A stretch of 40,340 nt of DNA, taken from Halobacteriales archaeon QH_6_64_20 (GTDB lineage: Archaea > Halobacteriota > Halobacteria > Halobacteriales > Halococcaceae). The DNA is taken from NCBI GenBank assembly GCA_003021235.1, contig PXQR01000012.1, positions 11,451-51,790 on the forward strand, given 5' to 3'. This document shows, piece by piece, positions 6,725-31,194 of this stretch. The notes beneath the pieces were generated by a model that was not told where the DNA came from, made no database searches, and saw only the letters and a list, made by a program, of their open reading frames with translations. Made by a program: the position numbers and the translations under genes. Every line of letters starts with the position of its first letter. The first letter of the stretch is position 1.

Positions 6725-7429
6725 TCAGGCGACGGCGACCGCCCGAACCGGCGCGCCATCGGCGTCGGCGAGCGCGAGCGGAAAGGCATGCAGCCGAAAG
6801 CGGGTCGGCACGGCGTCGAGACCTCGGAGGTTTTCGATGATCAAGCGCTCGTCGCCGAGCAGGACATGGTGGACCGCGAAACCGGCGGGTTCGTCGGCCG
6901 TCGCGTTCGCCGACGGCGTGGGATCGACGTTGAGCGCGTCGACTCCGATGTGATAGTCCCGCTCGGCACACCACGCGGCGGCCTCGGGTGTCAAGTACGG
7001 GTGATCGAGGTAGGCGTCGGTGTTCCAGTGTGTGTCCCACCCGGTGTGTAACAGGAGACAATCGGCGTCGTCGGTCGGATCAGTGTCACTGGCCGAACCG
7101 TCGTCCTCGACCGAATCGTCCGTCGCGGAGGCCGAAACCCCCTCGGCGAGATCAGCGGTCGTAATCGGTTCTCGTGAGTCCTTATCGAGGGAAACGACGC
7201 GTGCTTCGAAGACGAACGTTCCGACGTCGAACGCGTCGAGATCCGAGCCACCAGCCTCGGTGTGACTCGGCGCGTCGACGTGGGTGCCGGTATGGCTACC
7301 CATTGCGACCGACGACACTCGGCAGCCATCGTCGGCGTGAGTCGCCTGTGGATCGACGGAGACGTCGGGATCGCTAGGGTAAGTGGTCATGTCGGTCTCG
7401 ATTCGGTGGGAGAGATCGTAGGTCGCCAT
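6725..7429 (-). CDS. cyclase-family metal-dependent hydrolase (kynurenine formamidase-like)
   Basis: A 234-aa protein of the Cyclase family (PF04199). The metal-binding HTGTHVDAPSH motif is at about residues 46-56, and LLLHTGWD in the middle is the second conserved segment. Family members hydrolyse amide or ester bonds (N-formylkynurenine, isatin) or have unknown substrates. An acidic low-complexity insertion (about residues 100-120) precedes LLLHTG. It lies between the FAD oxidase (convergent) and the SSF symporter (divergent). The substrate is unknown; the context suggests an amide-containing nitrogen compound. Confidence 0.85.
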   Translation of the reverse strand: MATYDLSHRIETDMTTYPSDPDVSVDPQATHADDGCRVSSVAMGSHTGTHVDAPSHTEAGGSDLDAFDVGTFVFEARVVSLDKDSREPITTADLAEGVSASATDDSVEDDGSASDTDPTDDADCLLLHTGWDTHWNTDAYLDHPYLTPEAAAWCAERDYHIGVDALNVDPTPSANATADEPAGFAVHHVLLGDERLIIENLRGLDAVPTRFRLHAFPLALADADGAPVRAVAVA

Positions 7430-7649
7430 TTCGAGGGAGTCGGAGGCCAGGTCACCTCAACGATCCGGTTTCGGCGATCCGGGAGATCGCACCAAGGTTT
7501 TAGATACTCCGCTGTATAGGTTCGATCACATGTGGCAACGTGTTTCCACCGAACGTTCGTCGGGCGAACGGATCACTACGACGTGGGTGATCCGGCGATC
7601 CGGGGGCGTAGTCCCGAAACTTCCAGCCCCGACCGAGGGAGGGACGTAG

Positions 7650-9176
7650 ATGGTCGGCCAGGGAGCGGGGGTCACGCTGATCGCCTTCTGGGCGGTGACG
7701 ATGATCGGGCTGGCGTACTACATCTACCGGCGTCAGAACGTCACCGACACGAAGGAGTTCATCACGGCCGGGGGGCGCGCGCAGGTCGGGCTCACGACCG
7801 CGAGCTTTGCGGTGACGTGGATGTGGGCCGGTGACGTGCTCGGCGTTCCCGAATACGTCGGTATCACGGGTATCGCGGGCATCTGGATGTACGCCGCTCC
7901 CGCCGTCCTGTCCTCGCTGATCGTGATCCCTTTCGCACTCCGGATGCGGAGACTCTTTCCGCAGGGGCTGACGTATAGCGAGTACTTCATCGAGCGCTTC
8001 GGCAAGCGCGCACACCTCGCCGTGATCGCAGTGCTCCTCTACACGATGGTTCTGGGGGGTGTGATCCAGTTGTACGTCGGCGGCGCGGTCATCGGCGGAC
8101 TGACCGGGATCAGTACGACGGTGGTGATCGCGGCGCTCATGGGCGTCGTGGGGATCTACATCCTTCTCGGTGGGCTCTGGAGTTCGATGACGACCGACTT
8201 CGTCCAGTTCCTCAGCGCGATCGCAATCACGCTCGTGTTCGTCCCCTTCCTCGTCTTCGAGGCCGGCGGTCCGGGTGCGATCTACGACTCGATGACCACG
8301 AATCTCGGCTCGCAGGCTCCGGCCTTCCTCAGCATGGCGAATGTATCCGCGATCGAGGATCTCTTTTTGCCCTACGCGCTCGGATTGGGGGTCTGGGGCG
8401 TCGTGAGCCTCGCGACCTGGCAACGCGTGTTCGCCGTTCGTCGGGATAAGACGTCGAGATTCCTCACGGTCGGCGGCATCGGCGTCTTTACCACGATCTC
8501 GATGTACGGCGTGATCGGCGTGGTGGGTCTGGCGGCCTTCCCGGAGGTCGCACCCGGGAACATCACGATCGAGACGTTAGGATTGCTCCCCGAGTGGGCG
8601 ACGGTCGTCTTCCTATTAGTGGTGCTCATGGTGCTCGGCTCCTCGACCGATTCGTACCTGACCGCAATCGCGAGCCTCACCGCCCGGGACATCTACTTCC
8701 GCCATATAGACACGGAGGCGAGCGACGCCGCTCAGCTCCGGGTCGCGCGCGGTGCGAGCATCGGCTTCGCGGTCGTGATCTTCGCCGCGACGGTGTGGGC
8801 GCTTTCGAACCTGGGGTTCGTTCGGTTGTTGCTCATCGGCGGGATCGGCGCGTCGGGGCTCGTCGGCCCGTTCGCGCTCTCGTTGTTCTGGCGGCGGACG
8901 AGTTCTGCGGGCTTCGTCACGGGCGTCGTCGTGAGCCAGTTGCTCACGGGATTCCTGTTGCTCGGCAATGCCGGGTTCCCGCTGTGGATCGAGTTACAGC
9001 TCTGGGAGATCATGGCGGTCGGCCACCTCGTGTCGAGTTCGCTCGCGTTCGGCGTGAGTCTCGTCTCGCCGGACGACTTCCGCTTCGAGACGATCGCCCA
9101 GGGAGGGTCGGAGATCGCCGCCGACGGCGGTGAGACGGATACGGGGGCAGGGACGGAAACTGGAGGCGAGCGATGA
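7650..9176 (+). CDS. sodium:solute symporter (SSF family)
   Basis: A 508-aa polytopic membrane protein with about 13 predicted helices, starting with a hydrophobic helix directly after the N-terminus. The segment GLWSSMTTDFVQFLSA (about residues 172-187) is the SSF signature around the fifth or sixth helix. A strong Shine-Dalgarno-like GAGGGAGG at 7635-7643 fixes the ATG at 7650. The C-terminal tail is acidic and Gly/Thr-rich. It imports a solute (amino acid, amine, urea-like compound or organic acid) with Na+. It overlaps the next gene by ATGA, so the two are probably co-translated. Confidence 0.92.
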   Translation: MVGQGAGVTLIAFWAVTMIGLAYYIYRRQNVTDTKEFITAGGRAQVGLTTASFAVTWMWAGDVLGVPEYVGITGIAGIWMYAAPAVLSSLIVIPFALRMRRLFPQGLTYSEYFIERFGKRAHLAVIAVLLYTMVLGGVIQLYVGGAVIGGLTGISTTVVIAALMGVVGIYILLGGLWSSMTTDFVQFLSAIAITLVFVPFLVFEAGGPGAIYDSMTTNLGSQAPAFLSMANVSAIEDLFLPYALGLGVWGVVSLATWQRVFAVRRDKTSRFLTVGGIGVFTTISMYGVIGVVGLAAFPEVAPGNITIETLGLLPEWATVVFLLVVLMVLGSSTDSYLTAIASLTARDIYFRHIDTEASDAAQLRVARGASIGFAVVIFAATVWALSNLGFVRLLLIGGIGASGLVGPFALSLFWRRTSSAGFVTGVVVSQLLTGFLLLGNAGFPLWIELQLWEIMAVGHLVSSSLAFGVSLVSPDDFRFETIAQGGSEIAADGGETDTGAGTETGGER

Positions 9177-9400
9177 TCGGCGAGACGGGCTTTAGGGTCC
9201 TATTGATAGGGTTTTGGCTCGCGGAGTTCGCCTTCGCCGCGCTGGTCACCTACTGGTTCGTCGGCGAGGGGTTTTCCGACGACGAAGACGTCGAAAGCGG
9301 GCCGAAGCCACTCGAATCGAGCGGATATACCCTCCGGTCGCTCGCGATGTGGGGCGGTTTCTTTGTCGTCCTGCTTGCCATGATCACCCTCGGAGCCTGA
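9173..9400 (+). CDS. small two-helix membrane protein coupled to the symporter, 75 aa
   Basis: The ATG overlaps the symporter stop codon (ATGA at 9173-9176), a sign of translational coupling. The product has two hydrophobic helices (about residues 7-28 and 52-73) separated by an acidic loop. Small two-helix partners next to sodium:solute symporters are known (for example YhdT-type proteins next to PanF), but this one shows no clear motif and I assign no function beyond probable accessory subunit or stabiliser of the transporter. Confidence 0.75.
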   Translation: MIGETGFRVLLIGFWLAEFAFAALVTYWFVGEGFSDDEDVESGPKPLESSGYTLRSLAMWGGFFVVLLAMITLGA

Positions 9401-9437
9401 GTGGTTCAGCTCGAGTACCGACTCGACCGCGGATCAG

Positions 9438-10562
9438 TCAGTCATCGTAGTCGAAGAGGCCCCGTTCTTCGATCGCCGCTTCGGCGCTCGGGAGCGAGCG
9501 GAGATCGCTCCGGGAGCGGGTACCGAAGAGGGTGTCCCAGTCGTCAGCGAGTCCGCGCTCGCAGAGTAGTGCTACGGCGATCTCGGCGATTCCCCCGTAG
9601 GTGAGCGAGGCGAACTCCCAGCCCGGTCCCCCGAGCGGGAAGGGACCCGGTTCGCGCGGCCGGCGAACGTCGACGACGCCGCCGAGCGACGCGGCGGTTC
9701 CCTCGGCGAGGTCGCGGGCCTCGCCGAAGCGCGCGAGCGGGAACTCCCGGTTGTCGACGATCAGCGTCCCGGTACCGCCGTCGAGCGCGGGGTCGACGTC
9801 CGTCCGGCCGGCCTCGATCAACAGGCTCACGACGTCCATCGTCGACCCCTCGCCGCTGATGGCGTCGACGTAGCGTACTACTTCGTCGCCGTTTCCATGA
9901 TATTCGACGAGGCCCGCAGTCGTCAGGTCGGCGTCGATTCCCCAGGAGAGCAAGCTTCCGTCCAGCGTGATGCTCGACGGGAAGGCCAGTCGGACTCGAT
10001 CATCGCTTTCGTTGCCGACTTCACTCTCGCCATCGGTCTCTCGCCTATTCCTAAGTCGGTTCGCGCTCCCGACAGTACCGTTGCAGTCGACGTCGCCGCC
10101 GCTGGCGTCACTGTCCTCATCGGCCTCGACGATCCCCACCGAAGCCGGGCCGAGCGGCGAGTCGTCGAGCGTCCGCAGTGCGTCGAAAACGGCGGGAAGC
10201 GAGTCCCGTGGCACCGTCACCGTCCCGACGACGAGATCGCCCGAATCCTCGGTGGGGTCGTAGGTGACCCGACTGGTGAGCATGGCGATGCGTTCACGGA
10301 CTCGTTCGAGCCGGCCGCTGACGTCGCCGCGATCGAGTTCCGCGCGGCCGGCGGCCGTGAGGCGACGACCTCGGCCGGGTACCTTCGCGGTAAACCCCGC
10401 CTCGTCGAGATCGGCGAGCGCGAGGCGGATCGTCCGGTCCTCGATACGGTACCCCCGATGATGCATGCGCTCGGTGAGCCGGATGCTCCCGACGGGTTCG
10501 TGCGTGTTCACGAGGCGAAGCAGGTCGTAGGTTCGCCGATCGAGGTCCGGGTCCCCGAGCAT
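9438..10562 (-). CDS. NrpR-like transcriptional regulator (DUF128)
   Basis: A 374-aa protein. The first 75 residues are a winged helix (RLTERMHHRGYRIEDRT followed by LDEAGFTAKVPGRGRRLTAAG, given as segments), and the rest is the NrpR/DUF128 regulatory domain beginning around RIAMLTSRVTYDPTEDSG. In methanogens NrpR represses nitrogen-assimilation genes and is released by 2-oxoglutarate. The haloarchaeal relatives are not characterised to my knowledge. The first ATG in a protein-like context is at 10562; the open frame continues upstream only as noncoding sequence antisense to the ureohydrolase. A Ser/Asp/Gly-rich linker lies in the middle. It lies between the symporter and ureohydrolase operons, so it may control them in response to nitrogen status. 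Confidence 0.8.
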   Translation of the reverse strand: MLGDPDLDRRTYDLLRLVNTHEPVGSIRLTERMHHRGYRIEDRTIRLALADLDEAGFTAKVPGRGRRLTAAGRAELDRGDVSGRLERVRERIAMLTSRVTYDPTEDSGDLVVGTVTVPRDSLPAVFDALRTLDDSPLGPASVGIVEADEDSDASGGDVDCNGTVGSANRLRNRRETDGESEVGNESDDRVRLAFPSSITLDGSLLSWGIDADLTTAGLVEYHGNGDEVVRYVDAISGEGSTMDVVSLLIEAGRTDVDPALDGGTGTLIVDNREFPLARFGEARDLAEGTAASLGGVVDVRRPREPGPFPLGGPGWEFASLTYGGIAEIAVALLCERGLADDWDTLFGTRSRSDLRSLPSAEAAIEERGLFDYDD

Positions 10563-10814
10563 CGTCCGAAGGACTCGGTATCGAAGCGTCTTAGCTGTGT
10601 CCGGATCGATCCGCTCTCCCGGTCGATCGAGCGAGCCAGGACACCCGAGAGAGGACGATCGGCGACACGCACGAGGGGGTGGAACTATATTGCCGCCCCG
10701 AGTAGAGCGGGTCGTGACCGAACGAATCACGGCAGTTCGATCGAAGGCGTGGACGAAAACGACTATTGACGAGGGAAGCGGGGAACGAAGCGGCCGCGGA
10801 GCCGGGAGCCGATC

Positions 10815-11828
10815 GTGAGCGATACCGAGAACTCGCCGGCGGCGGCGTTTCGCGAGGGCCACTCGGGCGCGAACGTCGAACTCGGGTACGCCGGGATCGA
10901 CACCTTCCTCAAGGCACCACAGCGGGCCGTCGAAGACGTGGTCGAAGAGGACGCGGCGGTGCTCGGCGCGCCGTACGACGGCGCGGTGAGCAACCGCCCC
11001 GGCGCGCGCTACGGGCCCCGTGCGCTGCGGCAGGCGAGCGGCTGGTGGGCGTACCTCTCGGGATACAAGGGCGGGCTCACCAACATGCGTACCGGCCGGC
11101 AGGTCGATTATTCGACGCTCTCGCTCGCCGACTGTGGGGACGTCCCGGTCTTCCCGATGGATCGGGAGAAAACGGCCGAGAGCATCGCCGCATACGTCGC
11201 GACCGTCACCGCGGGGGAAACGATGCCCGTGCTCCTGGGGGGCGACCACTACTGTACGCTCCCCGCCGTCCGCGGGTTCGCCGAGGGAAGCGAAAACGAA
11301 ACGGTGGGACTCGTCCAGATCGACGCGCATACCGATACGACGGGAGACAGTGCCGTCTTCGGCGAGCACTTTCACGGATCGAGCACCCATCACATCGCAA
11401 CCTCGCAGTATAGCGACTACGAGCACGTGAGCCAGGTGGGGATCCGGGGCTACGAGTCGCCGGAGTTCTTCGAGTTCGCCGACGAGGTGGGTCTTTCCTG
11501 TTATACGATGGGTGACGTGCGCGAACAGGGGATCGGACAAGTAGTCGAGGCGGCGATCGAGGTGGCCGCGGCGGAGACCGACAGCGTGTACGTCACCTTC
11601 GACATCGACGGGGTGGACCCGAGCGTCGCGCCCGGCACCGGCACGCCGTGTCCGGGGGGGCTTTCGGCCCACGAGGCGCTCGCGGTCATGGAACTGCTCG
11701 GCACTCACGACGCGGTCGGCGCGCTCGACCTGATGGAGGTCGCCCCGCCGTACGACCCGACGGAGGGAACGAGTCGGCTCGGGGCCTATCTGCTCGTGTC
11801 CTTCCTCGAACGTCGGTTCGCCGAGTAA
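10815..11828 (+). CDS. ureohydrolase (agmatinase/arginase/guanidinase family)
   Basis: A 337-aa enzyme that starts with GTG at 10815. All binuclear manganese ligands are present: the His of GGDH (about residue 143), DAHTD (about residues 171-175) and DIDGVDP (about residues 257-263). The family hydrolyses guanidino groups, releasing urea. An N-terminal extension of about 40 residues (EGHSGANVELGYAGIDTFLK) is longer than in classical agmatinases. Specificity (agmatine, arginine, guanidinobutyrate, guanidine, proclavaminate) cannot be read off. Its place between an NrpR-like regulator and the pxp/biotin carboxylase group suggests the urea-like product is processed further. Confidence 0.88.
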   Translation: MSDTENSPAAAFREGHSGANVELGYAGIDTFLKAPQRAVEDVVEEDAAVLGAPYDGAVSNRPGARYGPRALRQASGWWAYLSGYKGGLTNMRTGRQVDYSTLSLADCGDVPVFPMDREKTAESIAAYVATVTAGETMPVLLGGDHYCTLPAVRGFAEGSENETVGLVQIDAHTDTTGDSAVFGEHFHGSSTHHIATSQYSDYEHVSQVGIRGYESPEFFEFADEVGLSCYTMGDVREQGIGQVVEAAIEVAAAETDSVYVTFDIDGVDPSVAPGTGTPCPGGLSAHEALAVMELLGTHDAVGALDLMEVAPPYDPTEGTSRLGAYLLVSFLERRFAE

Positions 11829-11960
11829 CCGACACCGCTGTGAGATGCGAGAGGGCAGCGTTGACTTGCCCAATTGCCCGCCGGACAACCATCGCGGGCG
11901 GGACTGAAAGGGGCCGGCGCGGTCGGCGTTCTCGTGAGCGACTGACGGGAGCGAACGAGA

Positions 11961-12217
11961 GCTCGAAAGTCGAGCGAAGTCGTTCGAGAGAGCTTCGCTC
12001 TCTCGTGATGACGAAACGGCGAAGCCGTTTCGAACCACGAGGCTTTCGTAGAACCCCGGCGTTCACGAGAGCTCGCTCTCGTGAGCCAGCAGGATCGCAC
12101 TGCGATCCTGCGACGACGTAAGCACTGGAGCGACCGAGCACAGCGAGGGAACGAAGCGCGTGGTTCGAAAGGCGCGGAGCGCCTTTCGTCATCACAAAAG
12201 ACGCCAAGCGTCTTTTG
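11961..12217. repeat. array of short perfect hairpins in a 430-bp gene-free gap
   Basis: The gap 11829-12259 holds no gene I can support, but it is packed with perfect inverted repeats with tiny loops: 11961-11975 (6-bp arms, 3-nt loop), 11985-12005 (9, 3), 12012-12032 (9, 3), 12063-12084 (10, 2), 12089-12111 (10, 3), 12166-12188 (10, 3) and 12195-12217 (10, 3). The flanks of the third and sixth are inverted copies of each other: gtgatgacgaaa at 12005-12016 pairs with tttcgtcatcac at 12184-12195, and tttcgaaccacg at 12028-12039 pairs with cgtggttcgaaa at 12159-12170, while the cores between them differ. Confidence 0.85.
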
Positions 12218-12259
12218 AACGACAACGAGCCGCGGGTAGCGAGGGACGCTCGGAGCCGT

Positions 12260-13027
12260 ATGACGCGCACGCGAATCGACCTCAACTGCGACATGGGCGA
12301 GAGCTTCGGGAACTGGGAGATGGGCCGCGACGAGGAGGTCATGCCCTACATCACGTCCGCGAACGTCGCTGGCGGATTCCACGCGGGCGACCCGCACGTC
12401 ATGCGCGAGACGGTCGAACTGGCCGCCGACTACGACGTCGGCGTCGGCGTCCACCCGGGATTCCCGGACAAGGCGGGCTTCGGCCGGCGGACAATGGACG
12501 CCTCGCCCGAGGAGGTCCGCGATTACGTGCTCTACCAGCTCGGCGCGCTCGACGCGTTCGCACGCCGGCGGGGGACTCGGCTCACGCACGTCAAGCCCCA
12601 CGGCGCGATGTACACGATGCTGTCGGACAGTCCCGAACACGCCCGCGCGGTCATGGAAGCTATTCTGGAGGTAGACCCGGAGCTAGTCTACCTCGCGACG
12701 GATTCCAATATCTACGAGACCGCCCAGGAGTTCGACGACGTTCGAGCGGTGTTCGAGGGGTACGTCGACCTCCGGTATAACGCGGATCGCAGTCTCATCG
12801 TCGAGAAACAGCTGACGCCCAAACCCACCGACGAGGTCGTCGAGCGGTTCGTCGACATCGCGACCGAGGGCGTAGTCGAAGCCGAGAACGGCGAGACGAT
12901 CGAGGTTCCCGCCGAAAGCATCTGTATCCACGGCGACGGGCCGAACGCGGTCGAGTACCTGGAAGGTATCCACGAGGCGGCCGCCGAACACGACATCGAA
13001 CTCGCCGGTCTCGACGCGCTCGCCTGA
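12260..13027 (+). CDS. pxpA: LamB/YcsF family protein, 5-oxoprolinase subunit A
   Basis: A 255-aa protein with the family hallmark N-terminus (IDLNCDMGESFG, then SANVAGGFHAGDP and GVHPGFPDK) and the later HVKPHGAMY motif. PxpA is the subunit that opens and hydrolyses the lactam ring of 5-oxoproline together with PxpB and PxpC. The ATG at 12260 was chosen because family members start within a few residues of the IDLNCD motif. The pxpB-pxpC pair follows 1.6 kb downstream, with the biotin carboxylase on the opposite strand between. Confidence 0.9.
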   Translation: MTRTRIDLNCDMGESFGNWEMGRDEEVMPYITSANVAGGFHAGDPHVMRETVELAADYDVGVGVHPGFPDKAGFGRRTMDASPEEVRDYVLYQLGALDAFARRRGTRLTHVKPHGAMYTMLSDSPEHARAVMEAILEVDPELVYLATDSNIYETAQEFDDVRAVFEGYVDLRYNADRSLIVEKQLTPKPTDEVVERFVDIATEGVVEAENGETIEVPAESICIHGDGPNAVEYLEGIHEAAAEHDIELAGLDALA

Positions 13028-13144
13028 AGACAGCACCGAGCGTTTCGATGTTCGGGTACGTGAGAGGAGACGGATCGTGGAGCCGAGCCGGGTCGGATCG
13101 AGTTAGGACAGGTCGAGTCGGAGCAACGGGATCGAGTCAGTGAG

Positions 13145-14521
13145 TCAGGAGCCATCGTTCCCGTCGTCGGTCGTCTCGGGGTCGAACTCGAAGTCCTCGT
13201 CGACGAACTTCGTGGTGTACTCGCCAGCGAGGAACCGGTCGTCGTCGAGAACCGCCGAGTGAAACGGGATCGTCGTCGGGATCCCCTCGATGTCGGCCTC
13301 CCGGAGGGCCCGTTTCCCCCGCTCGATCGCTTCTCCACGATCGGCTCCCCGGACGAGGAACTTCGCGACCATCGAATCGTAAAACGGGGAGACTTCGTCG
13401 TCCTCGTCGACCCCATCGTCGACACGAACCCCGATACCCCGCGGCGGCCGATACCGTTCGAGGGGCCCCGGGCGGGGCATAAAGTCGTTCGCGGGGTCCT
13501 CGGCGTTGATCCGGAACTCGATCGCCGCCCCTCGCGGATCGACGTCGCTTTGAGTGAACGATAGCTCATCGCCGGCCGCGACGCGCAGTTGGGTCTTCAC
13601 CAGGTCGATTCCCGTCACGGCCTCGGTGATCGTGTGTTCGACCTGAATTCTGGTATTGGCTTCGAGGAAGTAAAACTCGCCGTCCTCGTAGAGGAACTCG
13701 ACGGTCCCCGCGTTGACGTATCCTGCCTCTTCCATGCCGCGGCGCGCCGCCTCGCAGAGTTCGTCCCGGGTTTCTTCCTCGAGGGCGGGCGAGGGAGTCT
13801 CCTCGATCAGTTTCTGCTGGCGGCGCTGGACGCTACAGTCGCGCTCGCCGAGGTGACGGACGTTCCCGTGCTCGTCGGCGATTACCTGGACCTCGACGTG
13901 TCGAGGGCGCTCTAAGAACTTCTCGACGTAGACGGTCGGATCGTCGAAAAAGTCCTTCCCCTCGCGTTTGGCCGATCGGAGCGCGTCTTCGACTTCGCTT
14001 TCCTCGCTTACCACGACGAGCCCGCGGCCGCCGCCGCCGCCCGCCGCCTTGATCGCGACGGGGTAGCCGTAGTCGTCGGCGAACTCGTAGACCTCCCCGG
14101 GCTCGGTAACCGGATCGATCGTTCCGGGGACAACCGGGACGTCTGCAGCCTGCATCTCCGCCCGTGCCCTCGTCTTCTGACCTAAACGTTCCATTACCTC
14201 GCTCGGCGGTCCGATCCAGACGAGTCCTTCGTCCTCGACCCGTGCGGCGAACCCCGCGTTCTCGGCGAAGAAACCGTAGCCCGGATGGATCGCGTCGGCA
14301 CCGGCTTCGTGGGCGGCGTCGATTATCGTGTCGGCGTCGAGGTAGCTCTCGGTCGCCGACGACTCGCCGACGCGGATCGCCCGGTCGGCCTGGCGAACGT
14401 GTTTGGCCGTCTCGTCGGCGTCGCTGTAGACTGAAATCGCCTCGATACCGAGTTCGTGACACGCTTGGATAACACGAACGGCGATCTCCCCACGGTTGGC
14501 GATGAGGACGCGTTCGATCAT
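13145..14521 (-). CDS. accC: biotin carboxylase subunit (acetyl-CoA carboxylase-type AccC)
   Basis: A 458-aa stand-alone biotin carboxylase. It has the N-terminal [10 protein letters not shown] pre-ATP-grasp motif, the glycine-rich loop [11 protein letters not shown], the [15 protein letters not shown] bicarbonate/ATP segment and the catalytic [14 protein letters not shown] segment (usual sequence [14 protein letters not shown], so two substitutions). It carboxylates biotin on a carrier protein with ATP and bicarbonate. It is shorter than haloarchaeal acyl-CoA carboxylase alpha chains, which carry their own biotin domain; the carrier here is the separate 81-aa protein at 16699. A TATA-like gctaaatac at 14545-14553 puts transcription start next to the ATG. 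It is divergent from pxpB. Confidence 0.93.
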
Positions 14522-14630
14522 GACTCCGCTCTCGTGCGAGGGCGGCTAAATACCCACGCCTCCGCCGACTGCTCGTCCGCTGACGATGGCCGCCGAGCGC
14601 CTATGTCGCTGGCTGACCGCGGCGACCGGC

Positions 14631-14640
14631 ACCTTTTCCT
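14631..14640 (+). promoter_or_regulatory. TATA-like box for pxpB operon
   Basis: The T-rich accttttcct is 27-37 bp upstream of the ATG at 14668, matching a leaderless haloarchaeal promoter and favouring that start over the GTG at 14641. Confidence 0.35.
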
Positions 14641-14667
14641 GTGGTACCGTCGAATACAGACTCTGAG

Positions 14668-15573
14668 ATGGCCGCCGAACGAATCGCACACAAAGACCTC
14701 CCCGAGCCCCGGTACGAACACGGGGCCGACGACTACGTGTTCGTCGAACTCGATCGGGAGATGAGCTTCGACGCCAACTTCCGGTCGATGGCGATTACCC
14801 AGGAGATCGCGGAGCGCGACCTCGCGGGCGTCGAGGAGATCTGTCCGGGCAACGCCTCGTATCTGATCCGGTTCGATCCCGAGGAACTCGCCCCCGACGA
14901 ACTCGTCGAGCGACTCAAATCGGTCGCCGCCGAGACGGACATCACCGAGTACCGCTGGGAGACACGAGTTATCGACTTCCCGGTGCTCTACGCCGACGAG
15001 TGGACCCACGAGACGGTCATGAACTTCCGCGAGAACCACCAGGACCCCGAGGCCACGGATTTAGAGTACTCCGCGCGCATCAACGGGTTCGACTCCGCCG
15101 AGGCGTTCATCGACGCCCATTCCGGAGCGCCACACCTGGTGACGATGATGGGCTTCGTTCCAGGACTGCCCTTCTGCTTCCAGATGGTTCCCCGGGACCG
15201 CCAGATCGAAGTGCCGAAATACGTCGAGCCACGGACGAACACGCCTTCCCGGGCCGTCGGGTACGGCGGGGCCTTTACCGCCGTCTACCCCGTGCAGGGC
15301 GCGGGTGGCTATCAGCTGTACGGTCGGACCCCGATCGAGGTGTTAGACGTCGATCAACGCCTCCCCGACTTCGCCGAATCGATTGTCTTTCCCCAACCCG
15401 GCGACGTGCTCAACTTCCGGCGGATCGACCGCGAGGAGTACGACGCGATCCGCGAGGAGGTCGAAGCCGGCAGCTACGAGTACCCGATCAAGGAGACGGA
15501 CTTCGCCCCGGAGGACTTCTTCGAAGCACCGGACGAGTACAACGAGAAGCTACTGGAGGGACTGTACGCGTGA
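14668..15573 (+). CDS. pxpB: 5-oxoprolinase subunit B (KipI / allophanate hydrolase subunit 1 family)
   Basis: A 301-aa protein. The family motif MGFVPGLPFC, followed by a PRTNTPSRAVGYGG segment and the VYPVQGAGGYQLYGRTP segment, identifies the KipI/PxpB carboxyltransferase-half domain that is fused to KipA in urea carboxylase. The N-terminal portion (first 90 residues) is the usual small alpha/beta lobe. The ATG at 14668 follows a TATA-like box. It overlaps pxpC by GTGA, so the two subunits are translated together and presumably form a complex with PxpA and, in this setting, with the biotin carboxylase and carrier. Confidence 0.9.
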   Translation: MAAERIAHKDLPEPRYEHGADDYVFVELDREMSFDANFRSMAITQEIAERDLAGVEEICPGNASYLIRFDPEELAPDELVERLKSVAAETDITEYRWETRVIDFPVLYADEWTHETVMNFRENHQDPEATDLEYSARINGFDSAEAFIDAHSGAPHLVTMMGFVPGLPFCFQMVPRDRQIEVPKYVEPRTNTPSRAVGYGGAFTAVYPVQGAGGYQLYGRTPIEVLDVDQRLPDFAESIVFPQPGDVLNFRRIDREEYDAIREEVEAGSYEYPIKETDFAPEDFFEAPDEYNEKLLEGLYA

Positions 15574-16532
15574 TCGAAGTCCTCGACGGCGGGCTCTCCT
15601 CGACGATCCAGGACGACGGCCGATTCGGCCAGTATCACATCGGAATGCCGCCCTCGGGCGCGATGGACGGGTTCGCCCACCGCGTGGCGAACGCGCTGGT
15701 CGGCAACGACGCCGACCGCGCGACGATCGAGATGACCTACGGGGGGTGTGACCTCCGGTTCGATGAGAACGCCGTCGTCGCGCTGGCGGGCGCGGCGATG
15801 GACGGCGACCTCGGCGAGGAGTCGATTCCGATGTGGGAATCGGTCGCCGTCGACGCCGGCGACGAACTCTCGCTGGAGTTCGCGACGACCGGCGCGCGGA
15901 CCTACCTCGCGGTCGCGGGGGGTATCGACGTCGAACCGGTCATGGGAAGCCGGTCGACGTACACGCTCGTCGGCATCGGGGGCCACGAGGGTCGGACCCT
16001 CGAAGCGGGCGACCGGCTCGCGGTCGGCGACTCGGCTGCCGACCCGGCCGATCTCGCCGGACGGTCGATTTCCGACGAGCACGTCCCCGAGTACGACGAG
16101 ACCATCCGGATCGTGCTCGGCCTCTGTGAGTATCGACTCACCGACGACAGCCGGGAGGAACTGTGTTCGACCGAGTGGAAAGTAACCCCGGAGGCCGACC
16201 GGGTCGGCTACCGGTTGGAGGGCGTCGAACTCGACTTCGAGCCGCGCGAGCAACCGTTCGGGGCCGGCCCCGATCCGTCGAACGTCGTCGACCTGGGGTA
16301 TCCGGTCGGGTCGATCCAGGTACCGACGAAACCGATCGTGTTAATGCGCGACGCGGTTACCGGCGGCGGGTACGCGACCGTCGCGACGGTGATCAGTCCG
16401 GACCGGGACTTGCTCGCACAGTGTCGGACACACCAATCGATCCGCTTCGAGGCGGTCTCGGTCGAAGAGGCCGTCGAGGCCCGCCGCCGGCGACGGGAAC
16501 GCCTCGCGGAGATCACCGAGGGCCTGCAATGA
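15570..16532 (+). CDS. pxpC: 5-oxoprolinase subunit C (KipA / biotin-dependent carboxyltransferase family)
   Basis: A 320-aa protein starting with GTG at 15570, overlapping the pxpB stop (GTGA). The N-terminal DDGRFGQYHIGMPPSGAMD segment is diagnostic of the KipA/PxpC family; the later PTKPIVLMRDAVTGGGYATVATV segment (given as two parts elsewhere in the family) contains the conserved TGGGY. In urea carboxylase the same fold is the second half of the carboxyltransferase domain. With PxpB it forms either an ATP-dependent 5-oxoprolinase or, with biotin carboxylase, a carboxyltransferase. The stop overlaps a small ORF that leads into the biotin-carrier gene. Confidence 0.9.
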   Translation: MIEVLDGGLSSTIQDDGRFGQYHIGMPPSGAMDGFAHRVANALVGNDADRATIEMTYGGCDLRFDENAVVALAGAAMDGDLGEESIPMWESVAVDAGDELSLEFATTGARTYLAVAGGIDVEPVMGSRSTYTLVGIGGHEGRTLEAGDRLAVGDSAADPADLAGRSISDEHVPEYDETIRIVLGLCEYRLTDDSREELCSTEWKVTPEADRVGYRLEGVELDFEPREQPFGAGPDPSNVVDLGYPVGSIQVPTKPIVLMRDAVTGGGYATVATVISPDRDLLAQCRTHQSIRFEAVSVEEAVEARRRRRERLAEITEGLQ

Positions 16533-16702
16533 GTGCAATGAGTGCAATGAGTGCGACGAGCGGACGGACACGGCGGGAGGAGCTACCGGGATCGACCTGG
16601 GAACGTCGACGTGTCGCTCCCGGCGGGAAGGGACGACTCAACGCTTATACGCCGAGCGATCGATCGAGCGAACACTACGAACTTTCGGAGAGAAACACAT
16701 GA
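16529..16702 (+). CDS. possible 57-aa linker ORF between pxpC and the biotin carrier
   Basis: This ORF overlaps the pxpC stop by ATGA at 16529-16532 and ends with TGA overlapping the carrier ATG (ATGA at 16699-16702), so a ribosome could pass from pxpC to the carrier gene without a gap. It starts MSAMSAMSATSG from a threefold direct repeat of atgagtgca (16529-16552). The rest is Arg/Ser-rich with no recognisable domain. It may be a real translational bridge or chance; a TATA-like gcttatac at 16643-16650 inside it could give the carrier its own promoter. Confidence 0.3.
   Translation: MSAMSAMSATSGRTRREELPGSTWERRRVAPGGKGRLNAYTPSDRSSEHYELSERNT
16643..16650 (+). promoter_or_regulatory. TATA-like box upstream of the biotin-carrier gene
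   Basis: The sequence gcttatac lies about 50 bp upstream of the ATG at 16699, so a transcript starting about 27 bp downstream would have a leader of roughly 25 nt. It could give the carrier expression independent of pxpBC. Confidence 0.35.
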
Positions 16703-16944
16703 CGACTCATACGATCGAAGCCCCGATGCCGGGCGTGTTCTACCGCCGATCCGACCCCGATGAACCGCCGTACGTCGAGGAGGGCGACAGCGTCGAGGCC
16801 GGCGACGTCGTTGCGCTCATCGGCGTAATGAAGAACTTCTACGACGTCGAAGCCGAGGTCAACGGCACGGTCACCGAGGTCCTCGTCGAGAACGAAACCG
16901 AGATCGACGCCGAGGCGGAACTCCTGACCATCGAAACCGACTGA
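16699..16944 (+). CDS. accB: biotin carboxyl carrier protein (biotin/lipoyl-attachment domain), 81 aa
   Basis: An 81-aa single biotinyl domain. It starts with APMPGVFYRR, and the biotinyl lysine is K45 in GVMKNFYDV, where most carriers have AMKM. The acidic second half (VNGTVTEVLVENETEID) is the expected beta-strand hammerhead. It carries CO2 from the biotin carboxylase (13145-14521) to the carboxyltransferase. No long N-terminal AccB arm is present, as is usual for carriers in KipI/KipA operons. It closes the pxpB-pxpC transcription unit. Confidence 0.9.
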   Translation: MTTHTIEAPMPGVFYRRSDPDEPPYVEEGDSVEAGDVVALIGVMKNFYDVEAEVNGTVTEVLVENETEIDAEAELLTIETD

Positions 16945-17747: not shown

Positions 17748-18923
17748 TCAGGGCGTCATCGGTTCGGCCTCGTGGTACGACTCGGTCGTCGTGCCCTGCG
17801 ATTTGAGCGTCTCGCCGTCCGCGGCGAACAGGTGTAACACGCTCTCGTCGAAGGTGACGCCGACCTGCGAGCCTTCCTCGGGGACGAACGACGAATCGAC
17901 GCGGGCGGTCCACGAGTCGGACTCGCCGACGTCCAAGGTCAGAAAATTGTCGCTCCCCATCGGTTCGACGACGTCCACGGTCGCCTCGAAGGAGTTTCGC
18001 GGGTCGCGGTCGGCCGGATCGCCGATCACATCGAGGTCCTCGGGCCTAACGCCGAGCGTGAGATCGGTCCCGCCCTCCAGTTCGAGTCGCTCTGTAACGG
18101 AGCGATCGAGGGCGTAGGACAGCGTGTCGTTCGACCGGCCGACCAGCACGTACCGGTCGTTCCGTTCTTCGACGGTGGTTTCCATGAAGTCCATCGACGG
18201 CGACCCAATGAAGCCGGCGACGAAGCGGTTCACGGGGTGGTCGTAGACCTCCTGTGGCGGGGCGAGTTGCTGGAGTTCGCCGCCGTCGAGCACCGCGACG
18301 CGATCGCCCATCGTCATCGCTTCGGCCTGGTCGTGGGTCACGTAGATCGACGTCACCCCGAGTTCGCGCTGGAGCTGCAAGATCTCCGTGCGCATCTTCA
18401 CCCTGAGTTTCGCATCGAGATTGCTGAGGGGTTCGTCGAAGAGAAACGCCTGGGGCTCGCGCACGATCGCCCGGCCGAGCGCGACACGCTGGCGCTGTCC
18501 ACCGGAAAGCTGGCCGGGTTTGTCGTCCAACAGCTCCTCGATACCCATCATCGCCGCGGCGTCCTCGACCCGCTCGATACGGTCGTCCTTCGAGAGGTCG
18601 CTCGAATAACGGAGTCCGAAGCCGATGTTCTCCCGGATCGTCATGTGCGGATAGAGCGCGTAGTTCTGAAACACCATCGCGACGTCCCGGTCGCGCGGTT
18701 CCGAGTCGTTGACGATCTCCCCGTCGATCGAGATCGTCCCCTCGGTGATCGTCTCCAGACCGGCGACCATCCGCAGGGTAGTGCTTTTCCCACACCCCGA
18801 CGGTCCGACGAGCACGACGAATTCGCCATCACTGATCTCGATGTCGAGATCGGAGACCGCAACGATGCCTGACTCACGGCTCCCGTAGACCTTGGTGACG
18901 CCCTCGATCGTGACGCCGGCCAT
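17748..18923 (-). CDS. carbohydrate ABC transporter ATP-binding protein (MalK/UgpC type), set 1
   Basis: A 391-aa protein. The Walker A is GPSGCGKST (residues 40-48), the Q-loop FQNYALYPH, the signature LSGGQRQR, Walker B FLFDEPLSNLDAK and the switch histidine in VTHDQ. The C-terminal third (after about residue 240) is the MalK-type OB/TOBE regulatory domain with GVRPEDL. It energises uptake of a carbohydrate or similar solute. Its ATG overlaps the stop of the upstream hydroxyacid dehydrogenase (18923), so it is the last gene of the minus-strand operon that starts with the solute-binding protein at 23427. Length is normal. Confidence 0.95.
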   Translation of the reverse strand: MAGVTIEGVTKVYGSRESGIVAVSDLDIEISDGEFVVLVGPSGCGKSTTLRMVAGLETITEGTISIDGEIVNDSEPRDRDVAMVFQNYALYPHMTIRENIGFGLRYSSDLSKDDRIERVEDAAAMMGIEELLDDKPGQLSGGQRQRVALGRAIVREPQAFLFDEPLSNLDAKLRVKMRTEILQLQRELGVTSIYVTHDQAEAMTMGDRVAVLDGGELQQLAPPQEVYDHPVNRFVAGFIGSPSMDFMETTVEERNDRYVLVGRSNDTLSYALDRSVTERLELEGGTDLTLGVRPEDLDVIGDPADRDPRNSFEATVDVVEPMGSDNFLTLDVGESDSWTARVDSSFVPEEGSQVGVTFDESVLHLFAADGETLKSQGTTTESYHEAEPMTP

Positions 18924-19891
18924 CAGGACCCACCTCCCGCGAGGGCTTCGAACTCCGAAAGGTCAGAGAGCACCGCTTCGTTGGCGACGTGGGCCGGCTC
19001 ACGGCCGTCGAACAACGCTTCGATCCCGTCCGTGACCATCGTCGCGCCGCGTGCGGGTACTTCCTCGGCCGCGCCCGCGATGTGTGGCGTCGTCACGACG
19101 TTCGAAAGGGAGAGCAAAGGGTGGTCCGCGGGCAGGGGTTCGCCCGCGTAGACGTCGAGCGCTGCGCCCCGGAGCCCCCCGCTTTCGAGTTCGTCGACGA
19201 GCGCCGCCTGGTCGGTGAGTGCGGCCCGCGCGGTGTTGATGAAAAAGGCCGATTCGGGCATGCGAGCGAACTCCGCCTCGCCGATCATACCCCTCGTCTC
19301 CTCGGTCACGGGGCTGTGGAGCGTGACGAAATCGCTTCCTTCGAGCAACGGATCGAGGTCGACCTTCCGTGCGTCGTACTCGGCCATGGTGTCGCTGTCG
19401 ACGAACGGGTCGTACGCGAGGACCTCCATGTCGAAGCCTGCCGCGCGTTTCGCGACCAGCCGGCCGATCGCTCCCAACCCGACGATACCGAGTACCTTGC
19501 CGTCGAGTTCAGGACCCTTGAACGCCATGTACGGGGAGCCCGCTGCGATCCCCCAGGTGACGTCCTCGCGCTCGCCGCCTCCGCCGGCTGAGTCAGCCTG
19601 TGGTTCGCCCGTGTAGACCCCCTCGTGGAGCGAGCGATGGGCCTGTGGAATCCGCCGGGCGACGCCGAGCAGCAAGCCCATCGTGAAGTCGGCGACGCTG
19701 ACCGCGTTCCGGCCCGGCGCGTAGAGTACCGGAATTCCCCGTTCGGTAGCCGCCTCGATATCGACGTTCGCCTCGGGACCGCCGCGCGGGCAGGCAATAA
19801 TTCGGAGGGATTCGGCGGCGTTCATAACCGCCGCGGAGACGCCCTCGTAGCCGACGACGAGAATCGAGACGTTCTCGACTAGCTCCCGCAT
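18923..19891 (-). CDS. D-2-hydroxyacid dehydrogenase family, N-terminally damaged
   Basis: A 322-aa product of the phosphoglycerate/2-hydroxyacid dehydrogenase family: Rossmann motif GLGAIGR (about residues 138-144), catalytic Arg in NTARAA, Glu in the LDVYAGEPLP region and His in TPHIAGA. It would reduce a 2-oxoacid or oxidise a 2-hydroxyacid with NAD(P). The usual N-terminal strand is not in frame: a stretch reading MNTLITANFDPDSIDRL begins at ATG 19962 but runs into a stop at the junction near 19889. About 15-20 residues normally found between this stretch and RELVENVSILVV are also missing. So a deletion has broken the gene, and translation from the internal ATG at 19891 would lack the first beta strand. 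It lies within ABC operon 1. Confidence 0.8.
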   Translation of the reverse strand: MRELVENVSILVVGYEGVSAAVMNAAESLRIIACPRGGPEANVDIEAATERGIPVLYAPGRNAVSVADFTMGLLLGVARRIPQAHRSLHEGVYTGEPQADSAGGGGEREDVTWGIAAGSPYMAFKGPELDGKVLGIVGLGAIGRLVAKRAAGFDMEVLAYDPFVDSDTMAEYDARKVDLDPLLEGSDFVTLHSPVTEETRGMIGEAEFARMPESAFFINTARAALTDQAALVDELESGGLRGAALDVYAGEPLPADHPLLSLSNVVTTPHIAGAAEEVPARGATMVTDGIEALFDGREPAHVANEAVLSDLSEFEALAGGGS

Positions 19892-19962
19892 CTTAGCCCG
19901 AGGTCCCGTTCGAGGCGGTCGATGCTGTCCGGATCGAAGTTCGCTGTAATCAACGTGTTCAT
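19892..19962 (-). pseudogene. out-of-frame N-terminal remnant of the hydroxyacid dehydrogenase
   Basis: On the minus strand from ATG 19962 the frame reads MNTLITANFDPDSIDRL and a few more residues, a typical N-terminal beta strand and helix of this dehydrogenase family, then meets a stop just past the 19891 ATG of the main frame. The frame offset and the missing residues point to a deletion of about 50 bp. Confidence 0.65.
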
Positions 19963-19996
19963 ATCGTGATGAGAGAAACGATGTACCGGCTATGGG

Positions 19997-20793
19997 TTAA
20001 CCCTTTACGGCACCCATTGTCATGCCGGCGACCAAGTAGTTTCTGATGAGCAGGCTGAGGACGATCGGCGGGAGGATCGTCACGATCACCGCCGCGCCGA
20101 GTTGGCCCCATTGGATCGAGTAGGTCCCGACCGAGTTGCTGACGGCGATCGGCAGGGTCGAACTCGCCCCGGTCGTGAGGTACAGCGCGAGCACGTAGTT
20201 GTTCCACGAGAAGATGAACGCGATAAACGCCGCCGCGGCGACGCCGGGCGCTACTAACGGGAAGACGACCGTTCGTAACGCCTGTATTCGGTTACAGCCG
20301 TCGACCATCGCGGACTCTTCGAGCGAGTCGGGCAACTCGTCGATGAAGCCCTTGACGATCCAGATGATTAGCGGCAACGTGATCAGTAGGTGCGTGACGG
20401 TCAGCCCGACCAGTCCCTGCCCGATCCCCACGGTGAAGTAAAAGCCCACCAACGGGATCAGGATCGCGAGCGGCGGGGCCATCCGCGTCGAGAGGATCCA
20501 AAAGCCCACGTCGGTCTTTCTGGGAACGTCCATCCGCGAGAGCGCGTACGCCGCCGGCACGCCGACGAGGATCCCGATCCCGACGGAGGCAACGGCAACG
20601 AGGGTGCTGTTGAGGATGTTCTGCTGGATACCGACGCTTTCCGAGAAGATCGCCTGGAAGTGATCCGCGTCTTAAACGCCGTCGTCAGTGTCCAGTAGAT
20701 CGGAAACAGCATCCACAGGCAGGCGAGGAGGCCGATGACGTACTTCAGGCCCGTCCCGATCATCGCTCGTGGGGACCCGCTTGCGACGCTCAT
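19997..20793 (-). pseudogene. ABC transporter permease (MalG type), set 1, one frameshift
   Basis: The N-terminus (from ATG 20793, MSVASGSPRAMIG) encodes the first transmembrane helix and TTAFKT, then the frame is lost near 20663-20672. The second frame resumes with DHFQAIFSES and continues to VPAAYALSRM, five more helices, the EAA loop (DELPDSLEESAMVDGCNRIQA, residues split here) and the end at 19997. A one-base deletion explains the break. Joined, the protein would be about 265 aa, normal for the second permease of a carbohydrate ABC importer. Its start overlaps the stop of the other permease (20790-20793). If the frameshift is real the transporter is inactive. Confidence 0.85.
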
Positions 20794-21773
20794 TGCATCA
20801 TCCCTACCCGTCGCACGATCGACATACAGATCCCGACTGTGAGGACGATTAGCACGATCCCGAGCGCCGCGCCCAGGCCCGCGTCGCCGGTCCCGACGAA
20901 GACCGTCCTGTAGAGCTGGATGTTCATGATCTGGGTCGAGGTACCGGGCCCATGACTCGTGATCGTCTCGATGATCGGAAATGCCCGGAAGCTACGCATG
21001 AGCCGGAAGACCAGCGCGATAGCGATCATGTACTTGATGCCCGGGAGCGTGACGTGACGAAAGATCGCCCACCGGGGCGCGCCGTCGACACGGGCGGCCT
21101 CGTAGCGCGATTCGGGGATCGAGAGCAGTCCTGCAAAGACGATCAGGATCACGAGCGGCGTCCACTGCCAGACGCTGACCATGATGACGGTCACCATTGC
21201 CATCACGGGACTCGACGTCCAGGCCGGCGGCGCGATCCCGACGGCTTCGAGCATGAAGTTGAGCACGCCGATGGAGCCGTCGATCATGAGCCGCCACATC
21301 AACGCCGTGGCGATCGGCGTCACGAGCATCGGGAGCACGAAGATCGTCCGGAAGATCGGCTGCCAGCGTTCGGATAGCGAGAAGAGATACATCGCGAGCG
21401 CGACCCCTAAGACGAGCTGGATCGTCACCGAAAACCCCGTGTAGACGGCCTGGTGGACGACCGATCCCGAGAGCACGAACTCGAGGGGCTGGCTCGGATC
21501 GAACTCGAAGCGGAAGAACTCCGGGTCGTTGAGCAGTCGTGCGTAGTTGCCGAACCCGACGAACGCACCCTTGCCGCTGGTGAGGTTCCAGTCGTGCAGG
21601 CTCATCCAGACGGCTCTGACGAGCGGGAAGATCGAGATGAACGCGAGCACGGCGATCGACGGGAGCATGAAGATCCATCTGAGCGTGCTGTCGCTCACCT
21701 CTAACCGATTCAACAGCGGTTGCCCGTCCCTGCGCTTCCGATACCGTTCCGAGACGGCGCTCAGCCCTAGCAT
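20790..21773 (-). CDS. ABC transporter permease (MalF type), set 1
   Basis: A 327-aa integral membrane protein with six predicted helices, the first at about residues 34-55 (FMLPSIAVLAFISIFPL). The cytoplasmic EAA motif RYEAARVDGAPRWAIFRHV, about 60 residues before the last helices, contacts the ATPase. It belongs to the carbohydrate importer class that includes MalF/UgpA. The stop overlaps the ATG of the companion permease by four bases, consistent with coupled translation. The solute-binding protein gene lies 46 bp upstream on the same strand. Confidence 0.93.
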   Translation of the reverse strand: MLGLSAVSERYRKRRDGQPLLNRLEVSDSTLRWIFMLPSIAVLAFISIFPLVRAVWMSLHDWNLTSGKGAFVGFGNYARLLNDPEFFRFEFDPSQPLEFVLSGSVVHQAVYTGFSVTIQLVLGVALAMYLFSLSERWQPIFRTIFVLPMLVTPIATALMWRLMIDGSIGVLNFMLEAVGIAPPAWTSSPVMAMVTVIMVSVWQWTPLVILIVFAGLLSIPESRYEAARVDGAPRWAIFRHVTLPGIKYMIAIALVFRLMRSFRAFPIIETITSHGPGTSTQIMNIQLYRTVFVGTGDAGLGAALGIVLIVLTVGICMSIVRRVGMMQ

Positions 21774-21819
21774 ATACCTCCTCCGTCGGCGCTGATCGGA
21801 GGAACGCTCACGTCGGCAC

Positions 21820-23427: not shown

Positions 23428-23508
23428 CGGTGTCTCCGTAGTCCCGTGGTTGTCGTTGTTCGCTTCGTCCACCCCTGGGAGTTGGGGCTATCGCTCTATC
23501 GTCGCTTC

Positions 23509-23534
23509 GCGTGTAGCACTTGCGTGCCACACGC
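23509..23534. promoter_or_regulatory. imperfect palindrome in the leader of solute-binding protein 1
   Basis: The arms GCGTGTAGCAC (23509-23519) and GTGCCACACGC (23524-23534) match at 10 of 11 positions with a 4-bp spacer. A TATA-like tttatgattt on the minus strand (about 23560-23572) precedes it, so the palindrome sits near the predicted transcription start and before the start codon at 23427, where a repressor would block the operon. Confidence 0.45.
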
Positions 23535-23667
23535 TAACGGTGATTTCTCTATAGCGCTAAATCATAAACGTTTGGCCACTACGACACGCTGAGGGCCGAT
23601 TTACTCCGCGTGCTTCGTCGCGTTTGATCCGAATCCGATACTGCGTGACCGATCGTCGGATTCGTAG

Positions 23668-24669: not shown

Positions 24670-24825
24670 CGAAGTACAGTACCGCTCGGGTGTAGATCAA
24701 GCTTCGGCCCACGCCGGTACGCTTCGATCCGATCGATACTCCGGAGCGGAAGTCGGCTTCGACGAGCGAAGTCACCCGGTCCACTGCGTCCGGATCCACT
24801 GCGTCGATCGGTGACGGACCTCGCT

Positions 24826-25995: not shown

Positions 25996-26080
25996 AGTTA
26001 GTTGCCTCCCTCAAACCGCCGATCGGTTCCGCTGACGGTCCCCGATCCTACAGCCGTCGAGGTCGTTGCTCGCGTCGGGG

Positions 26081-27896: not shown

Positions 27897-27979
27897 CGCT
27901 TTCCTTTCTCCTTGCCAGTGTGTACCGTAATGAATAGAAAGGACTATCTTGACTGTTTTGATCCGCGGAGGCTGGCCGG

Positions 27980-29431: not shown

Positions 29432-29489
29432 ACCAGTCGCCTGTTCCGAGGGGCGCTATTTAGTCCTTTTCCACGCTCGCACGGTCCGC

Positions 29490-29507
29490 TGTCGCCGCGC
29501 GGCGACA
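29490..29507. promoter_or_regulatory. perfect 18-bp palindrome between divergent operons
   Basis: TGTCGCCGC (29490-29498) and GCGGCGACA (29499-29507) form a perfect palindrome without spacer. It lies between the minus-strand promoter of solute-binding protein 2 (about 29455-29464) and the plus-strand TATA-like box of the FGGY kinase (29577-29588), a position from which one regulator could control both. Confidence 0.4.
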
Positions 29508-29576
29508 ACGACGGTCGTGGCCGAAGCGGCGGGGGCCGGTTCGAACGACGCGATGAGGCGTCGGGACGATCGATGC

Positions 29577-29588
29577 GCTTATGTTATT
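29577..29588 (+). promoter_or_regulatory. TATA-like box for FGGY kinase 1
   Basis: The AT-rich gcttatgttatt lies 41-52 bp upstream of the GTG at 29629, which puts transcription start near 29610 and rules out the in-frame ATG at 29581, which lies inside the box. Confidence 0.45.
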
Positions 29589-29628
29589 TCCTATCACACC
29601 TACGCGCGACCGTGGATGTGAACGGATA

Positions 29629-31131: not shown

Positions 31132-31183
31132 GAGTCGGGGGTCGCGTTCGTATCGAGGCCGCGTCGATGGTCGGCGACCGATC

Positions 31184-31194
31184 CATAACTATTT
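31184..31194 (+). promoter_or_regulatory. TATA-like box for class II aldolase 1
   Basis: The sequence cataactattt lies 26-36 bp upstream of the ATG at 31220, giving an almost leaderless transcript independent of the upstream kinase. Confidence 0.45.

Follow-up and report, generated by a model that had tools for sequence, protein, structure and literature searches.

Five neighbouring genes in a 40,340-nucleotide stretch of contig PXQR01000012.1 from Halobacteriales archaeon QH_6_64_20 (hereafter the window) encode PxpA, a stand-alone biotin carboxylase (BC), PxpB, PxpC and a short biotin carrier. We consider it somewhat probable that the five proteins constitute one multi-subunit biotin enzyme of the urea carboxylase (UC) type, which would carboxylate a small cyclic amide on its nitrogen and thereby ready the ring for opening by PxpA. 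The genes, and the two codons at the centre of the argument, are:

12260-13027, plus strand: PxpA, a LamB/YcsF hydrolase (PF03746, 295.6 bits; NF003814, 294.6, cut-off 226)
13145-14521, minus strand: stand-alone BC, without a carrier domain (PF00289, PF02786 and PF02785; NF006367, 621.8, cut-off 597)
14668-15573, plus strand: PxpB, the CT_C_D half of the carboxyltransferase, with the UC-type lysine (PF02682, 139.7)
15217-15219, plus strand: codon of PxpB K184, aligned by sequence with the UC general base K1605
15570-16532, plus strand: PxpC, the CT_A_B half of the carboxyltransferase (PF02626, 296.4)
16699-16944, plus strand: biotin carrier (BCCP) of 81 amino acids (PF00364, 62.8; NF005457, 100.3, cut-off 87)
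16831-16833, plus strand: codon of carrier K45, the predicted biotinylation site within VMKNF, from alignment with 1bdo

The genes named in a first-pass annotation of this DNA all lie where it had placed them, with their domains confirmed by profile matches and the GTGA overlap of pxpB and pxpC read directly from the DNA. For PxpA the ATG at 12260 was chosen as the start, with the TTG at 12215 as a possible alternative, and the GTG at 14641 is likewise possible in place of the PxpB start at 14668. All parts of a UC (BC, CT_A_B, CT_C_D and biotin carrier) are thus present as separate proteins, alongside the linked PxpA, PxpB and PxpC homologues that characterize the PxpABC 5-oxoprolinase. PxpB scores higher with the UC model TIGR02712 (114.2 bits) than with the PxpB model TIGR00370 (86.7, cut-off 145.55 not reached), PxpC reaches 225.2 with the PxpC model NF045499 (cut-off 500 not reached) and 217.3 with TIGR02712, and the BC scores 507.8 with TIGR02712, such that none of the three separate proteins attains the single-chain cut-off of 1303.85 of the UC model. 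The window PxpB is the sole PF02682 gene found in the host genome (3.6 Mb, completeness 90%); Haloferax volcanii, one of 14 control genomes, gave no PF02682 match. Close protein relatives place the host among the haloarchaea, and six genomes of the class have PxpB-PxpC sequences identical in every letter to those of named haloarchaea. In existing annotation the five genes appear piecemeal, as subunits of acetyl-CoA carboxylase, allophanate hydrolase and 5-oxoprolinase. We also note a 9-base unit, present three times in tandem at 16527-16553, which starts over the pxpC stop codon.

The five genes occur together, within spans of 4.2-10.3 kb, in 33 of 36 loci with lysine-type PxpB; 23 of the 36 come from haloarchaea, counting the window, and 13 from bacteria (Streptomyces, Rubrobacter, Alpha- and Betaproteobacteria). 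Natrialba magadii ATCC 43099, Ruegeria sp. TM1040 and Azospirillum lipoferum 4B are among the organisms that have the set. In the three exceptions the displaced members remain on the same contig, namely BC ~37 kb and PxpA ~211 kb away in L002 (genome G137), the carrier ~60 kb away in L030 (G047) and PxpA ~9 kb away in L082 (G003). The order pxpA, carrier, BC, pxpB, pxpC is identical in 11 of the 13 bacterial loci, whereas in the haloarchaeal loci linkage is retained with order and orientation shuffled, which favours function, rather than descent, as the cause of the linkage. The first-pass annotation had treated the whole of 9438-16944 as one set and suggested checking its conservation across haloarchaea; the five genes at 12260-16944 are conserved as a unit, but the ureohydrolase and NrpR-like genes upstream of them are found in none of the 35 other loci. 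A batch of 27 loci was gathered with sequence patterns derived from the window itself, and the plasmid hits were hand-picked, so that only the genome census below represents an even sample. Exact duplicates (L071, L074, L077, L080, L081 and L084) were dropped before counting, as were L014, which lacks PxpB on a cut contig, L085, in which PxpC is truncated, and the short copies L001 and L055-L070.

In an evenly drawn census of 145 haloarchaeal genomes, PxpC is present in 16 (14 of 59 genera), and the short carrier (E 1e-24 or better) is found in exactly these 16. Eight further carrier matches (E 4.8e-8 or worse) are parts of much longer frames (610-658 residues) and resemble the terminal carrier domains of PccA-type subunits. 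PxpA accompanies PxpC in 15 of the 16 genomes and occurs in three more that lack PxpC; the cluster-type BC is also found in 15 of the 16 (the window's own and 14 at 64-70% identity). The exception in both counts is G123 (L085), a decaying copy in which PxpC is cut to its last third, the carrier looks intact, and BC, PxpB and PxpA are absent nearby. A separate PccA-type BC (60-64% identity) is present in all 16 genomes, and the nine that were fetched all bear a fused carrier motif.

Co-occurrence of the BC and carrier with acyl-CoA carboxyltransferase genes had been set out in the annotation as the finding that would speak against a dedicated carboxylase. The host genome encodes one biotin ligase and three PF01039 carboxyltransferases, located on contigs C29, C62 and C78 (the window lies on C12), and none of the three has a relative at E 1e-5 within the 36 loci (control positive), although the haloarchaeal origin of the queries gives the test less force in the 13 bacterial loci. 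The annotation of the bacterial loci likewise contains no PF01039-type carboxyltransferase gene (L007 carries no annotation). On this basis, the assignment of BC and carrier as parts of an acyl-CoA carboxylase was rejected. Ten BC positions, numbered after E. coli AccC, are conserved in 53 or more of the 54 aligned sequences. The motif VMKxF is present in 35 of 35 carriers found (that of the remaining locus falls beyond the stretch fetched), in contrast to AMKMEN in PccA subunits and SMKME in the one UC carrier read. In PxpA, 14 polar positions, including H41, H65, H114, H224 and D226, are conserved in 58 or more of the 59 aligned sequences. Near the intact BC gene of L043, two tail-to-tail copies of approximately the first 125 BC residues are located at 13980-14724.

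Within the carboxyltransferase, PxpB K184 aligns with the general base K1605 of UC, whereas all 24 other PxpB sequences carry arginine at this position. Two further residues are switched relative to the arginine type, with tyrosine replacing tryptophan at PxpB 215 and aspartate replacing serine at PxpC 241. The 36 PxpB-PxpC pairs form a clade of their own (support 100/100), and in an unrooted tree the lysine-type (K), UC and arginine-type (R) groups are each separated with 100/100; an earlier midpoint-rooted tree with a single UC had given the K clade a support of 89. Two loci, L012 (a run of N) and L028 (a frame in two pieces), enter the residue counts and not the PxpB-PxpC tree. The best fold match of PxpB is UC; the predicted structure does not support the geometry of K184, as residues 183-216 have a pLDDT below 50.

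BC is present in 35 of the 36 lysine-type loci against 6 of 22 compared loci (Fisher test, with the p-value indicative only, as related loci are taken as independent, and with the divergent BC of L017 counted as present). The lysine is nonetheless rejected as a strict marker of the BC link, since 5 of 24 arginine-type loci contain a full-length BC, namely those of the rhizobia L010, L011 and L022, the Lachnospiraceae L013 and Shinella L054, and the arginine-type Streptococcus loci L016 and L017 contain divergent BCs. Each of the three rhizobial loci holds, besides its arginine-type PxpBC, a BC and a pair of separate biotin carriers. The Shinella locus, also of arginine type, is another architecture of the same parts, in which a fused PxpB-PxpC adjoins a fused BC-carrier protein and PxpA (L054, 6283-10387).

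The BCs appear to have a history distinct from that of the carboxyltransferase. In a midpoint-rooted BC tree (L016 and L017 left out), cluster BCs and PccA-type BCs from haloarchaea fall into a single clade (support 96), and the proteobacterial cluster BCs group with the BCs of UC (support 88). The carboxyltransferase, with its single PxpB-PxpC clade, thus shares one history across domains, whereas the BC of the haloarchaeal set appears to be a recruit from the host's acyl-CoA carboxylase lineage that replaced a former BC while the carboxyltransferase stayed.

Taken together, the linkage in 33 of 36 loci, the shared presence of carrier and PxpC, the UC-type lysine and the lack of any PF01039 match support, at the level of sequence, a split UC-like carboxylase that would work with PxpA. 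Of the separate-subunit scheme put forward in the first-pass annotation, the split BC, carrier and carboxyltransferase acting with PxpA is therefore retained, and the link to the ureohydrolase is not. The overall distances K-UC and K-R are approximately equal, and a sister relationship of the K pairs to UC, which we considered, is not borne out by the unrooted tree or by these distances; this slightly weakens the case for a UC-type enzyme and slightly strengthens that for an ordinary 5-oxoprolinase.

In the mechanism that we propose, BC would carboxylate biotin on K45 of the carrier using ATP and bicarbonate. The carrier would then dock on PxpB-PxpC, where K184 may serve as the general base and the carboxyl group would pass to the nitrogen in the ring of a substrate resembling a lactam or hydantoin. 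PxpA would hydrolyse the ring carbonyl of the N-carboxylated substrate, and the resulting N-carboxy amino acid would shed CO2 spontaneously, such that bicarbonate would be catalytic and one ATP would be spent per ring opening. The steps up to hydrolysis by PxpA are deduced from what is established about catalysis by biotin carboxylases and by UC. The opened ring amides are predicted to be used by the cell as food.

The neighbouring genes fit catabolism of small cyclic amides, without singling out one. Among the 22 other haloarchaeal loci, which include the three (L029, L032 and L042) that provided the neighbour queries, class III aminotransferases are found near seven, amidases near eight (one a fragment) and Lrp-type regulators near five; the window has a class III aminotransferase 7 kb away. 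The aminotransferases are a weak hint of an omega-lactam, for example 2-pyrrolidone or 5-oxoproline. Hydantoin-like rings are pointed to by neighbours at single loci, that is HyuAB beside L003 and L038, a hydantoinase-like amidohydrolase beside L040 (358.8 bits, below the cut-off of 393.25) and, in Pectobacterium betavasculorum, an allantoin permease gene adjoining such a set, with PxpA unnamed in the gene table (PMC10991766; here and below, statements on PDB entry 9yx5 and on papers given by PMC number refer to excerpts of these sources). L037 is accompanied by 4-aminobutyrate transaminase and succinate-semialdehyde dehydrogenase, and a TorT-like binding protein comes next after 6 of 13 bacterial loci. 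The amidases were rejected as allophanate hydrolases, the best of five (one each from L029, L040, L032, L003 and L111) scoring 190.0 against a cut-off of 511.05. At L111 and L112, PxpA occurs without PxpBC directly beside an amidase that shares 68% identity with the amidase of L029, which lies near PxpBC, and this PxpA-amidase pair may work without the carboxylase; at a third orphan PxpA locus, L113, no such amidase was found at E 1e-8. Further downstream in the window, 17748-37688 contains sugar-type ABC transporter genes, a 2-hydroxyacid dehydrogenase, a PdxA-like protein, FGGY kinases and a class II aldolase, and is probably an unrelated sugar-acid region.

Upstream of pxpA lie the two genes that are not conserved with the set:

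9438-10562, minus strand: NrpR-like regulator (PF01995 (NRD1_2), 70.2 bits, and HTH_12, 37.8, both above cut-off)
10815-11828, plus strand: ureohydrolase of a neighbouring, separate module (PF00491, 260 bits)

The ureohydrolase contains H145, D170, H172, D174, D263 and D265 as read from the DNA, which we take to be the metal ligands. It passes the arginase superfamily model PF00491 and falls below the NCBIfam cut-offs for agmatinase (TIGR01230, 163.1 against 174.3), arginase (119.1 against 227.6) and formimidoylglutamase (138.7 against 229.15). The nearest solved sequence is 7esr, deposited as 'probable agmatinase 2', which is presumably a guanidine hydrolase. Five of the other 15 genomes with PxpC have a ureohydrolase orthologue (69-74% identity), which lies ~21 kb from PxpC in one, ~390 kb from it in another and on a different contig in three. 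In G143, a cyclase, an SSS symporter, a 75-residue membrane protein, NrpR and the ureohydrolase follow one another in the order seen in the window, without pxp genes (matching stretches are 6725-11828 of the window and 3788-10004 of L087); an aminotransferase is inserted between NrpR and the ureohydrolase, and the contig differs from that bearing PxpBC in this genome. The ureohydrolase has NrpR at its side in L089 and L090 too, an arrangement not seen in L086, L088 and L091. The ureohydrolase module is therefore separate from the pxp module and merely its neighbour in the window, and this orthologue search, covering the 16 PxpC genomes and six ureohydrolase loci, led us to reject both genes as parts of the system. 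The annotation had placed the ureohydrolase upstream of the carboxylase, together with the NrpR-like regulator; neither gene is supported as part of the system, and the regulator belongs with the ureohydrolase, as in G143. The cyclase-symporter-NrpR-ureohydrolase module probably serves a guanidino compound. Between the ureohydrolase and pxpA, 11835-12255 is a mosaic of short perfect hairpins with 74 matching places in the host genome, itself included, and thus belongs to a dispersed intergenic repeat family.

The switch residues would also suit a true split urea or guanidine carboxylase, in which an acyclic urea-like substrate is carboxylated and an amidase or PxpA hydrolyses the allophanate-like product. 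The amidases near 8 of 22 loci, the adjacent ureohydrolase with its likeness to 7esr, and the interpretation of such a cluster as urea carboxylase plus allophanate hydrolase by the authors of PMC10991766 are consistent with this, yet we judge it unlikely: PxpA is the linked hydrolase in 33 of 36 loci whereas two annotated UC loci contain UAAP1/UAAP2 and no PxpA, the overall distance to UC is no smaller than that to other PxpBC, the amidases checked score far below the allophanate hydrolase cut-off, and the ureohydrolase is unlinked elsewhere. Extending this idea to a single pathway in which ureohydrolase, NrpR and carboxylase process a guanidino or ureido compound has the adjacency of the genes in the window in its favour, but is very improbable given the absence of both genes from the other loci and the separate module in G143.

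The opposite view, that the window encodes an ordinary biotin-independent 5-oxoprolinase and that BC and carrier are mere neighbours serving an acyl-CoA carboxylase, draws on the established activity of PxpABC in Bacillus subtilis and Corynebacterium glutamicum (PMC13274462), on a PxpC whose distances to biotin-free PxpC and to UC are much the same, on the kinship of haloarchaeal BCs with those of acyl-CoA carboxylases and on the acetyl-CoA carboxylase names given by RefSeq. However, the PF01039 proteins of the host are unmatched in the 36 loci, the carrier is confined to exactly the PxpC genomes, each of which has a separate PccA-type BC available, and PxpB and PxpC stay below their equivalog cut-offs, so we regard this explanation as improbable. 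We give a similarly low weight to the idea that the carboxylated product is retained, for biosynthesis or assimilation, with PxpA acting at a different step. In its favour, PxpA is ~211 kb from PxpC in G137 and three genomes have PxpA without PxpC; against this stand the linkage and conserved polar residues of PxpA, and the amidase, hydantoinase-like and HyuAB neighbours, which suggest catabolism.

Read as one enzyme, the five genes would represent a biotin-dependent route without a name, by which haloarchaea, Actinomycetota and Pseudomonadota would process cyclic amides. The energy source that PxpABC enzymes use to open rings becomes testable, as does the question of whether N-carboxylation by carboxybiotin, known for urea, extends to lactams, and the lysine/arginine switch provides a one-residue sequence test for sorting the family. 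Searches of open-licence PMC papers gave no description of the five genes, pxpA included, as a single enzyme. Lombard and Moreira reported split carboxyltransferase genes in bacteria and Thermococcales, with no function given in the excerpt (PMC3199775). Genes for a carboxyltransferase, allophanate hydrolase subunit 1, BC, carrier and a LysR regulator are listed side by side in PMC10991766, extra BC/carrier and pxpB/pxpC genes of Lactiplantibacillus pentosus are treated as separate matters in PMC12427679, and in the excerpt of PMC6368324 the five genes are not present as one set. Lactam opening paid for by ATP would be shared with the ATP-dependent caprolactamase and hydantoinase CapAB/HyuAB, for which neither biotin nor PxpBC homology is reported in the excerpt of PMC8453981; a carboxylated lactim was one of the mechanisms weighed by its authors for the unrelated caprolactamase.

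Compared with UC (3va7, 5i8i; TIGR02712), the window set shares BC, carrier, CT_A_B and CT_C_D, as well as the general-base lysine and the other switch residues. It differs from the single chain of UC in its separate subunits and split carboxyltransferase halves, in its VMKxF carrier and in having PxpA as partner in place of allophanate hydrolase. The PxpABC 5-oxoprolinase, to which we take E. coli YbgJKL to belong, has the same linked PxpA, PxpB and PxpC homologues, but the window set is distinct in its dedicated BC and carrier, in K184 and Y215 of PxpB and D241 of PxpC, and in failing the equivalog cut-offs. The 5-oxoprolinases of B. subtilis and C. glutamicum are established members of this family, and in print PxpBC is assumed to phosphorylate 5-oxoproline (PMC13274462), from which the carboxylation route that we propose would differ.

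That PxpBC can contact a biotin carboxylase has a precedent in PDB 9yx5 (released 2025-11-26), deposited as the long chain acyl-CoA carboxylase complex of Mycobacterium smegmatis with bound MSMEG_0435-MSMEG_0436, and the genes had already been listed in PMC10991766 and PMC12427679. The mycobacterial PxpBC, the expression of which rises under nitrogen limitation (PMC4617892), is similar to the window set in being bound to a biotin-dependent carboxylase complex, with AccA3, but distinct in being of the arginine type and in having the long-chain acyl-CoA carboxylase complex, rather than a BC of its own, as partner. A wider generalization, which we regard as doubtful, is that all prokaryotic PxpABC are biotin enzymes that open ring amides by carboxylation rather than phosphorylation. 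The family would then comprise a lysine branch with the catalytic lysine of UC and with BC and carrier of its own, and an arginine branch that for the most part makes use of the housekeeping biotin carboxylase, as the mycobacterial complex would suggest, and UC would be a fused cousin of these ring-opening enzymes.

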